Made by a program: the position numbers and the translations under genes
The notes under the pieces: generated by a model
Database searches by the model: none
What the model was told of the DNA's origin: nothing
What the model saw: the letters and a program-made list of their open reading frames with translations, nothing else
In this document: positions 12,405 through 32,143 of the stretch, one piece after another
How the letters are laid out: each line of letters starts with the position of its first letter
Numbering within the stretch: position 1 is the first letter of the stretch
Assembly: GCF_000718985.1 (NCBI RefSeq)
Contig: NZ_JODL01000039.1
Coordinates: 1 to 32,143, forward strand
Origin: Streptomyces megasporus
GTDB taxonomy: Bacteria > Actinomycetota > Actinomycetes > Streptomycetales > Streptomycetaceae
Direction: 5' to 3'
Length of the DNA stretch: 32,143 nucleotides

Positions 12405-12711
12405 GAGGGTGCTCCGTTTCGTGTGGTGATGCGCTCAGGTGTGCGAGCGGAATTGACCGGTCCACATGCTAAGGGCGATCTTCGGAGGTTGTCAGTCGAC
12501 GGAACGCGACGGAAATCCCCGCCGTTTCCCCGTCGTCCTCCCCGCCGTTTTCCCCGGTGCCGCCCTCGCCGGGCTCCGGCGGTGACCTTTGGAAAGTGGC
12601 TCCGGGACACGGCTCCCGAGCGGGGAAAGGGCCGCTGTGAGTCAGTCCACAGCGAACCGAGAGCGGTACTCCGGCCCGGCATGGCACACTGGTGCTGTAC
12701 CAACGTCAAGC
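12405..12711. other. divergent gap between NCS2 permease and riboflavin leader
   Basis: This region must hold the promoters of both the permease (minus) and the riboflavin operon (plus). I see no -35/-10 pair good enough to call. Short open frames lack motifs or sensible starts. No tRNA and no strong hairpin were recognised. Confidence 0.4.
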
Positions 12712-12833
12712 GCACTCCGGGGTCGGTGAAACTCCGAACCGGCGGTTACAGTCCGCGACCCGACCGCATCCTGCGGCCGGTTGACCAGGTGAAATTCCTG
12801 GACCGACGGTCAAAGTCCGGATGGGAGGCAGTG
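12712..12833 (+). ncRNA. FMN riboswitch (RFN element)
   Basis: The conserved RFN blocks occur in order: CTCCGGGGTCGGTGAAACTC (12715-12734), ACCGGCGGTTACAGTCCGCG (12738-12757), the GGTGAAATTCC block at 12788-12798, GACCGACGGTCAAAGTCCGG (12801-12820) and the closing ATGGGAGGCAG (12821-12831). These match the FMN aptamer, with purine-rich joining segments and the GGTGAAA loops. It lies in the leader of a complete riboflavin operon. FMN binding should switch the operon off. The 170 nt between the aptamer and the ribD start would hold the switching hairpins; a small CGACG-TTCGG-CGTCG stem near 12909-12923 is visible, but no U-tailed terminator. Confidence 0.95.
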
Positions 12834-13003
12834 CGCGGCGAGCCGTGAACCGGCCGGTACGCCGCCGTCGGCGCGCGCCCACGCGTTCCTCGCGAACCCG
12901 TGGAGTCCCCGACGTTCGGCGTCGCCGCCCGGTGTGCGGGATCGCCCCGGTCGTTCTTCCGCGACCACCCCGGAGTCCGTGCCCGAGGAGGCAGGAGGAC
13001 CCG

Positions 13004-29698: not shown

Positions 29699-29850
29699 CA
29701 CGGGCCGCGGCGCGCGTGGACCTCGGTCGCGCCGGGGCGACGGACGGTGTTCGCGGGGGGGCTCCTCGCGTTCCCGGCCCGCGCGCCGCGTACGCCGCGG
29801 TGAGGGGGCGACGGCCGCGCGGGCGGTGCTCGACCGGCGGTCGGGCCGGC

Positions 29851-29856
29851 TAGACT
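29851..29856 (+). promoter_or_regulatory. candidate -10 (TAGACT) for the methyltransferase gene
   Basis: TAGACT lies 8 bp before ATG 29865, with no ribosome site between. This would give a leaderless or nearly leaderless transcript. The -35 region (GCTCGA-like) is weak. Confidence 0.4.
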
Positions 29857-29864
29857 TCACGCCC

Positions 29865-31139
29865 ATGGCCAACGCAGAACCCCGTCCGCTCCACTCCGGA
29901 CGGATCCGTGTCATGGATCTGTTCGCCGGAGCGGGCGGGTTCTCCGCCGGGTTCGCCGGTTACCGGCCGGCCCGTGGCGAGAACCCGTTCGTCTCCGTGG
30001 CGGCGGTCGAGTTCGACCCGGCGGCGGCCTCCACCTACGCCGCGAACTTCGGCGGCGCGCACGTCCACGCCGGGGACATCGCGGACTTCGACCCGACTCC
30101 CTTCAAGGGAGAGGTCGACGTGATCCTGGGAGGGCCGCCCTGTCAGGGGTTCTCCGGCCTCGGCAACGAGGACCCGAACGACCCGCGCAACGAGCTGTGG
30201 CGCGAGTACGTGAACGTCGTCGCCAAGGTCCACCCCAAGATCTTCGTGATCGAGAACGTCGACCGCTTCCTGAGATCGGGCCAGTACCGGGAGTTGAAGG
30301 ACGCCTCACGGCGTCGCGGCCACCCGCTGTACGACTACGACGTGGCCACCGCGATCCTCAACGCGGCCGACTACGGCGTGCCGCAGGCCCGCCGCCGCGC
30401 CATCGTCATCTGCACCCACAAGGACTTCGACACACCCCTCGAACACCCCGCCCCGACGCACGACAGACGCGGGTACGCGCCGCCGGAGGGGGACGGAGGG
30501 GAGGCGCCCGCCCCCGCGCCGCCGGGCGTCCTGCCGCGGTGGATTCCGGTGTCGCGCGTCTTCGACGTCTCGGCCCGTCTGCCGGTGGCGGACCGGATGC
30601 CCGAGTCGCGGGGAGGCGACGCCCACGTCGCGGGCGTGCCCGGCCACTACCTCACCACGGACCTGCACTTCGGGCGCAACCCCGAGATCCTCTCCCGCGC
30701 CCGGTACCGGGCGATTCCCGAGAACGGCAACCGCAACGACCTGCGCGGGAAGTACTTCAAGATCGACCGGTCGGGCCGCATCCGCCTGTCCACCGAGGAG
30801 GGATACCGGCGGATCAAGGGCCCGGAGACGTACCTGTCCACCGCGAGCTGGGACAGGCACGACAAGGGATCCGGCGACGTCATGGGCCGGCTGCGGAGGA
30901 ACGAGCCGTCGGTGACCATCCGCACCGAGTTCTACAAGCCGGAGAAGGGCCGGTACCTCCACCCGACGGAGGACCGACCCATCACCCACTACGAGGCCGC
31001 GCTGATCCAGGGCTTCCCCGAGGACTTCAAGTGGTACGGGTCGAAGATCCAGATCGCCCGCCAGATCGGCAACGCCGTGCCGGTGGGCCTCGCCGCGCGA
31101 CTCGCCGAGGCCGTCCACGACTTCCTGTCCCGCCGATAG
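29865..31139 (+). CDS. DNA (cytosine-5) methyltransferase
   Basis: A 424-residue C5-cytosine methylase. Motif I is DLFAGAGGFSAGF, motif IV is GGPPCQGFSG with catalytic C93, motif VI contains FVIENVDRFL, motif VIII is QARRRAIVI, and the late motifs IX-X include YEAALIQGFPEDF and IARQIGNAVPVGLA. The region of about residues 200-320 should hold the target-recognition domain; its sequence does not reveal the site. A Vsr gene lies immediately downstream in convergent orientation, which suggests the methylated C is guarded against deamination. No restriction endonuclease gene is visible in the window. Confidence 0.95.
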   Translation: MANAEPRPLHSGRIRVMDLFAGAGGFSAGFAGYRPARGENPFVSVAAVEFDPAAASTYAANFGGAHVHAGDIADFDPTPFKGEVDVILGGPPCQGFSGLGNEDPNDPRNELWREYVNVVAKVHPKIFVIENVDRFLRSGQYRELKDASRRRGHPLYDYDVATAILNAADYGVPQARRRAIVICTHKDFDTPLEHPAPTHDRRGYAPPEGDGGEAPAPAPPGVLPRWIPVSRVFDVSARLPVADRMPESRGGDAHVAGVPGHYLTTDLHFGRNPEILSRARYRAIPENGNRNDLRGKYFKIDRSGRIRLSTEEGYRRIKGPETYLSTASWDRHDKGSGDVMGRLRRNEPSVTIRTEFYKPEKGRYLHPTEDRPITHYEAALIQGFPEDFKWYGSKIQIARQIGNAVPVGLAARLAEAVHDFLSRR

Positions 31140-31214: not shown

Positions 31215-31646
31215 TCAGAAGCCGGGCCCGCCGCGGCGCCGGCTCGCCACCAGCGCGGCGATCCTCGCCGCGGCCTCCGCCGGGTCCTCGTGCTCCCACA
31301 CCCGCACCGACGCCCAGCCGGCCTCCGCCAGCCGGGTGTCGGTGTCGAGGTCGCGGGCACGGTTCCCCTCGATCTTCCGGCGCCAGAACTCGGCGTTGTT
31401 CCTCGGCCAGGTCGCGTGCTCCGGACAGCCGTGCCAGAAACAGCCGTCGACGAACACCGCGACACGGGCCGGACCGAAGACGATGTCGGCCTCCCGCCGC
31501 ACGCCCTTCACCGGTCGGCGGTGGACGCGGTACCGCAGTCCGGAGGCGTGCAGCACCCGCCGCAGCGCCAACTCCACCTCGGTGTCGCGGCTCCGCTGCC
31601 GACTCATCCGGCTCCGGGTCTCCGCGGTCGTCTCCAAGCGCCTCAC
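31215..31646 (-). CDS. vsr: Vsr very-short-patch mismatch endonuclease
   Basis: A 143-residue endonuclease that nicks next to the T of T:G mismatches arising from deaminated 5-methylcytosine. N-terminal RSRMSRQRSRDTEVELALRR, metal-binding D54 in READIVF, and VAVFVDGCFWHGCPEH with conserved His follow the family. WPRNNAEFWRRKIEGNRARD and WASVRVWEHED complete it. The GTG at 31646 keeps the needed N-terminal helix; an ATG at 31607 would cut it. It faces the methyltransferase gene across 75 bp, rather than following it as in E. coli. Confidence 0.93.
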   Translation of the reverse strand: MRRLETTAETRSRMSRQRSRDTEVELALRRVLHASGLRYRVHRRPVKGVRREADIVFGPARVAVFVDGCFWHGCPEHATWPRNNAEFWRRKIEGNRARDLDTDTRLAEAGWASVRVWEHEDPAEAAARIAALVASRRRGGPGF

Positions 31647-31724
31647 ACGCCCATTCTGCCGACCCGCACCGACACCACGAGCCCCACCGGAACCACAAGA
31701 ACCACCGGCCTCACACGACACCGT

Positions 31725-32143
31725 TCACGCGCGGTCCGCCGGGGGCGGTTCGGCCGGCAGCTCCCAGGAGATCGCGGCCGTGCCGCTCCCGGCACCGACG
31801 CACTGCCGGCCGTCGTCGGAGAACTCCAGCCGGTACGCGTTCGGCCGCCCGACGCGTACCCACCGCCGGTGAACCGCCTCGACCTCGCCCCAGACGTCCC
31901 GTTCGCCGCCCGACTCGACCCGAGGGGGGCCGGGACCGTCGGAACGCGCCACGGCCCAGGACTCCTCCTCGGGGGCGATCAGTGTGAGGTGCTCGGCCTG
32001 GAAGTCCCGCACCAGGCCGGGGGCGAGGTGGGACAGGGCCGACCATTGACATCCTCCCCGACCTAAAGGCCGGGGATTCCCGCCTGCTCCCACCGGATGG
32101 GTGAGGGCTTCGGGTGGGTTCCTGCTTCGCTGCGCGGTGCGGG
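31725..32143 (-). pseudogene. methyltransferase-like C terminus, interrupted by an IS200/IS605 end
   Basis: The minus frame is open from the window edge to a stop at 31725. Its last 100 residues (WGEVEAVHRRWVRVGRPNAY, preceded by EESWAVARSDG) resemble the C terminus of the protein-L-isoaspartate-methyltransferase-like proteins of Streptomyces, from memory. From about 32046 rightward the frame becomes the end of the insertion element (AQRSRNPPEALTHPVGAGGN), which looks like a TnpB tail. So the native gene has lost its 5' part, and TnpB may run in frame into it. A GTG at 32093 is an unlikely start. Confidence 0.55.
32046..32143 (-). mobile_element. right end of an IS200/IS605 TnpB-type element, partial
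   Basis: On the minus strand the sequence runs AATCCCCGGCC, TTTA, GGTCGGGGAGGATGTCAA. The 8 bp stem (32056-32063 with 32068-32075, one G-T pair) and the terminal TCAA are typical of the subterminal hairpin and end of this family in actinobacteria. The element lies to the right, so its tnpB should be on the minus strand beyond the window. The same stretch is expected to encode the 3' scaffold of the omega RNA. Only the last 98 bp are visible. Confidence 0.75.

Follow-up and report, generated by a model that had tools for sequence, protein, structure and literature searches.

The last 98 nt of the 32,143-bp stretch of Streptomyces megasporus DNA analyzed here (the window, which is the entire contig C39 of a 5.85-Mb genome in 195 contigs) form the right end (RE) of an IS200/IS605-type transposon, truncated by the contig end, and we hold with high confidence that this IS605-type element lies in a methyltransferase gene. 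At the level of sequence, the analysis demonstrates the RE and the tail of tnpB, a left end that includes the last part of a tnpA frame, a precise insertion, a CTAC tetranucleotide at the left flank, and three copies of the element in the genome. Sequence comparison confirmed the identity of the RE (32046..32143, minus strand), which recurs at three identical contig ends and has complete relatives in the genus that carry both tnpB and RE. The element ends in TCAA, the right cleavage site (32046..32049, minus), as indicated by the sequence and by a joint that restores the reading frame of the interrupted gene. In frame 0, positions 32063..32143 (minus) encode the last 26 codons of tnpB, PAPRSEAGTHPKPSPIRWEQAGIPGL, followed by a TAG stop, and 25 of these 26 residues are identical to those of P0034, a full-length TnpB of 409 aa (RNA-guided endonuclease InsQ/TnpB) from Streptomyces phaeofaciens. 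An initial annotation had proposed an IS200/IS605 right end stopping at this TCAA, with tnpB lying to its right; the repeat at three contig ends and the tnpB tail bear this out, the last 26 codons of the gene being already inside the window.

The RE segment (32046-32143, minus) is 100% identical to two other places in the same genome, C29:1-98 and C18:107002-107099. These three contig ends have exactly 99 nt in common, the 99th being a T past TCAA that is by chance present in all three flanks. Left ends were found at three more contig termini, those of C31, C26 and C24; C31 and C24 have exactly 99 terminal nt in common and C26 extends 12 nt further. The right-end contigs take in 98 nt of the element and pass through the tnpB frame, and the left-end contigs extend 176-187 nt into the element, terminating inside the tnpA frame. 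We attribute these breaks to a collapsed repeat that interrupted a k=99 assembly graph, so that C39 stops at the element because three near-identical copies collapsed in assembly. The identity of the copies, 100% at the right ends and 98-100% at the left ends, indicates that they moved recently.

The sequence next to the RE (31725..32045, minus) is the 3′ part, 106 codons and a stop, of a gene for a PCMT-family methyltransferase whose 5′ part is on C31, as judged from homologues, the joined frame and Pfam. Homologues of the flank protein (31728-32045, minus) at 23 contig loci all align from its residue 1, and all nine of these loci that were examined upstream have an unbroken frame extending further towards the N terminus. 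When a full homologue served as query against the genome, the N-terminal half of the gene was located at the beginning of C31 (residues 11-301 of the query, 44% identity). Joining C31 to C39 restores the methyltransferase in frame (...GGCTAC/TGGTCGG..., the slash marking the joint; protein ...GACGCCCACGGCTAC/TGGTCGGCC...), and the joined protein matches PF01135 (PCMT) at 94.7 bits and TIGR04188 at 223.8 bits, the latter under the cut-off of 380. The interrupted gene that had been presumed at this site was thereby recovered, with its second half on C31, uninterrupted homologues and a restored frame. The joint of C24 with C29 gives an SDR oxidoreductase in a continuous frame (...CGGCGCTAC/TTCGAGGTG...), and that of C26 with C18, paired by elimination, gives the stop region of a TsaC/YrdC gene, which regains its own stop. 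In the latter copy the element sits on the stop codon and provides a new one, altering only the last residue from E to D, and we regard this insertion as nearly neutral. All three joints fall at CTAC/T, and the insertion is precise and without target duplication.

On C31, between the gene and the contig terminus, lies the left end, with a hairpin (ACCGGGC-TTCA-GCCCGGT) and the end of an opposite-strand frame; subterminal hairpins are present at both ends of the element. This frame end comprises the C-terminal 21 codons of tnpA, SVGGAPLSIVKQYIEQQNRPL followed by a stop, and is identical in 21 of 21 residues to the left-end tail of L105, a complete 1,826-bp element also carrying tnpB. A related element on plasmid NZ_CP109170.1 is annotated with tnpA and TnpB in opposite orientations. 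From such complete relatives, we infer that the element would consist of divergent tnpA and tnpB genes and measure about 1.8 kb.

The methyltransferase and SDR frames close only with CTAC in the host gene, indicating that CTAC belongs to the target and not to the element. It directly precedes 14 of 15 left ends, namely all three in this genome and 11 of the 12 from relatives that were taken at E<=0.0014; seven of these 12 were seeds of the search profile, from which the flank and the first 11 nt were excluded. L118 and L119 have the CTAC left flank. The other seven of the 19 left-end matches (E 0.012-0.098) were dropped as right-end hairpins, other places or the subtype found on C6, and none of them has CTAC. 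Because CTAC stands before 14 of 15 left ends, it is probably both the insertion target and the transposon-associated motif (TAM). The element resembles IS608, for which PMC5934647, in the part consulted, gives TCAA as the right cleavage site (CR), GAAT as the right guide sequence (GR) and TTAC as the target: both have the TCAA site and the GAAT letters, and both insert on the 3′ side of a tetranucleotide that is retained and ends in TAC, but the Streptomyces element uses CTAC in place of TTAC. In the window, GAAT stands 5′ of the terminal hairpin at 32076..32079 (minus).

A solved TnpB structure, 8bf8_A, which we take to be that of ISDra2 TnpB, is matched by P0034, the related Streptomyces protein, over residues 6-380 with an E of 9.3e-72. 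In ISDra2 of Deinococcus radiodurans, the guide is formed by the 3′ end of the right-end element RNA (reRNA), which derives from the flank, and the TAM is the insertion target motif, as set out in the sections consulted of Karvelis 2021 (PMC8612924). The TAM named there is TTGAT, whereas the left-flank motif of the Streptomyces element, its predicted TAM, is CTAC. By the ISDra2 rule, the presumed guide from the flanking DNA, TGGTCGGCCCTGTCCCACCT, corresponds to 32026..32045 of the minus strand, read from 32045 down, and this copy's predicted guide, TGGTCGGCCCTGTCCC(ACCT), with CTAC as its TAM, is readable and plausible. The guide register first proposed, the reverse complement of 32026-32045, agrees with the position of TCAA and with the CTAC/TGGTCGG joint; since the joints lie at CTAC/T and CTAC is the probable target and TAM, the predicted guide TGGTCGGCCCTGTCCC is placed correctly.

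The IS605-type transposon inserted 3′ of CTAC in the methyltransferase gene, and, if it behaves as known systems do, TnpA would excise it as single-stranded DNA, with end sequences pairing with the cleavage sites. Trimming of a tnpB transcript that reads through the right end would yield an omega-RNA (reRNA) with the flank TGGTCGGCCCTGTCCC(ACCT) as its final 16-20 nt. On the sister chromosome, TnpB carrying this RNA could then cut the resealed, element-free CTAC/TGGTCGGCCCTGTCCC, and repair off the intact copy would restore the element. We consider it on balance probable that the TnpB of this Streptomyces IS605 lineage has CTAC as its TAM, a pairing that was not in print in the literature searched, and that the three copies make guides that differ from one another, each directed at the donor site of its own copy.

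We then considered the structure of the right end. The terminal hairpin, TCCCCGGCC-TTTA-GGTCGGGGA (32055..32076, minus), was delineated by folding and covariation and holds the tnpB stop codon in its loop and 3′ arm. Across 19 right ends, 96% of the cells in its 8-bp core (32056-32075) are paired, and in five of the eight core pairs both partners vary. None of 500 shuffles reached the covariation score of 0.502, and slid registers scored at most 0.112; two coarser measures had their observed values reached by 32 and 29 of 500 shuffles. Relatedness among the right ends inflates the shuffle comparisons, and the slid controls concur. Within tnpB codons, the presumed omega-RNA scaffold has a variable second hairpin (32086..32108, minus), which folds, with changed letters, in all 18 of the 19 right ends that could be anchored, L112 having been dropped for an anchor mismatch; the z-scores, from mononucleotide shuffles, range from -0.09 to -2.63 (mean -1.4). 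An alignment of 10 of these variable hairpins was gappy and was not used. The window's own fold alone was within chance, both as RNA (z -1.48, 17 of 200 shuffles as good) and as DNA (z -1.17, 23 of 200 as good), and the structural support is therefore comparative and does not come from the window's single fold. A search of the window against Rfam gave no family at its gathering score apart from a flavin mononucleotide (FMN) riboswitch elsewhere.

Below threshold, 32037-32128 (minus) matched HgcC (20.1 against a gathering score of 50, E 0.006) and sot0042 (18 against 88, E 0.005), and HgcC also gave sub-threshold matches at the right ends of four relatives. These families could be TnpB right-end RNAs, matches so far below gathering being hints only; HgcC and TnpB were not found together in the literature searched.

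Several observations weigh against an element that works with a guide RNA of its own. The left end of L120, a plasmid element, lacks CTAC, and the left end on C26 has one base fewer than its two counterparts in this genome. The terminal hairpin would also be conserved by TnpA binding of single-stranded DNA. Searches of the assembly did not recover the bodies of the element's own tnpA and tnpB: PF01797 detected no tnpA, PF07282 only one other TnpB, on C6, and PF01385 only this C6 TnpB and a partial one on C18. Likewise, matches in the assembly to the element DNA of a complete relative were confined to the right ends and a 29-nt stretch of C8 (40 of 205 first-look candidates scored). A full-length element would be expected to leave a contig, and bubbles or filtering are the only explanation we can offer for the absent interior contig. 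Because its tnpB body was not found, the TnpB could be dead; we nevertheless consider it fairly probable that this copy's own TnpB is active.

The TnpB gene on C6 (C6:187097-187666) is a second, different one in a 416-aa open frame. Its right end is similar in part, and the weak match at its left end (E 0.012) follows TCAC, not CTAC. The partial OrfB/TnpB stretch on C18 (C18:100189-100350) lies in a 204-aa frame and is probably a remnant.

The missing interior also bears on the possibility that the three copies are short non-autonomous relics, consisting of ends with tnpA and tnpB tails only and having no TnpB in cis, which would be a special case of the same element and compatible with its anatomy. 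No tnpA and no tnpB of this type were found in an assembly that keeps contigs down to 200 bp, and a deleted relative does exist (L100, about 1240 bp, in which tblastn finds only tnpB query residues 167-395). Against this stand the high identity of the copies, which points to recent movement, and the manner of the breaks, since the left- and right-end contigs all stop at k=99 inside coding frames, as they would for a longer collapsed interior. It is because both kinds of end contig break at exactly k=99 within coding frames that we regard relics as unlikely and prefer an element with a collapsed interior.

Less probable still is that the structured right end serves TnpA alone and that the locus has no guide RNA function. 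TCAA and GAAT are the letters of the IS608 CR and GR (PMC5934647, as far as the part consulted goes) and TnpA requires a hairpin regardless, so that covariation of the terminal hairpin is by itself no proof of an RNA and supports a working end more than an RNA. However, the second hairpin, within tnpB codons, is retained with changed letters in every anchored right end, its single z-scores being modest, and the HgcC and sot0042 matches, weak and far below gathering, point in the same direction. We therefore judge a TnpA-only role to be quite improbable and continue to favor a right end that would also give rise to a guide RNA.

The initial annotation had further assigned to the guide, as its target in sister genomes, the interrupted gene's empty site, and had suggested looking in relatives for the uninterrupted site next to the target motif. 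Homologous sites were indeed found in other Streptomyces (34 sites, from 11 + 23 loci, with possible species duplicates across the collections and two sites on one contig), but none of the 34 has CTAC, 25 of them have GGCTTC or GGATTC instead, and they differ from the guide at 5-10 of its first 16 bases. An exact match of TAM plus guide was found in none of 392 genomes of the genus, its own included. At one mismatch, two of these genomes matched, compared with 17 for a reversed-pattern control (rows counted manually); in one the TAM itself is altered, and the other, G033, gave no homologue of the methyltransferase gene in the homologue search. With up to three mismatches, 377 of the 392 genomes match, the reversed pattern being by eye mostly commoner still, and the genome itself has two matches against seven for the reversed pattern. 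Targeting of sister species was therefore rejected for the genomes examined, by both the site comparison and the genome-wide search, and the idea that the guide actively cuts the intact methyltransferase gene in other Streptomyces and so carries the element from one species to another, which follows from the general TnpB model only, is hardly credible. At the sequence level, the predicted guide fits no target but an empty allele of this strain itself or of a conspecific.

Other features were noted in the genome. Adjoining the interrupted PCMT-family methyltransferase is a pair consisting of a C5-cytosine DNA methyltransferase of the dcm family (29826-31139, plus strand, 164.7 bits) and, convergent to it, a Vsr mismatch endonuclease (31215-31661, minus, 113.1 bits against a cut-off of 97.85). 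A few kb from the third copy, C18 carries an ABC-transporter ATPase of the daunorubicin-resistance (DrrA) subfamily (L039 2981-4069, minus). The FMN riboswitch is at 12708-12838 of the window (plus strand), with 98.1 bits against a gathering score of 66.2.

Elements of this type are ordinary in kind and common in the genus. Matches to the 98-nt end at E<=1e-3, many of them covering just a portion of it, occur in 35 of 150 Streptomyces genomes including its own, and at least 8000 TnpB homologues were scored; among those listed, 117 of 120 fit a crude RuvC/zinc-finger pattern, and the TnpBs of two relatives carry the expected Pfam domains. Compared with the Streptomyces InsQ/TnpB elements represented by P0034 and plasmid NZ_CP109170.1, with which it shares the protein family and tail, as well as the CTAC flank seen in L118 and L119, there is no essential difference, L120 without CTAC aside, and this is another copy. 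The CTAC motif is the sole mildly new detail of a system otherwise of known kind: CTAC was not found with TnpB in the literature searched, whose reach did not extend to supplementary TAM lists and figures. Characterized TnpB TAMs show little diversity, almost all being rich in AT and a small subset in G, according to the portion consulted of PMC10278001, and a CTAC TAM could for that reason be useful. What the locus provides is a fully read case, in which a single insertion is seen with both flanks, the target gene is restored, and the motif and guide are predicted from sequence.
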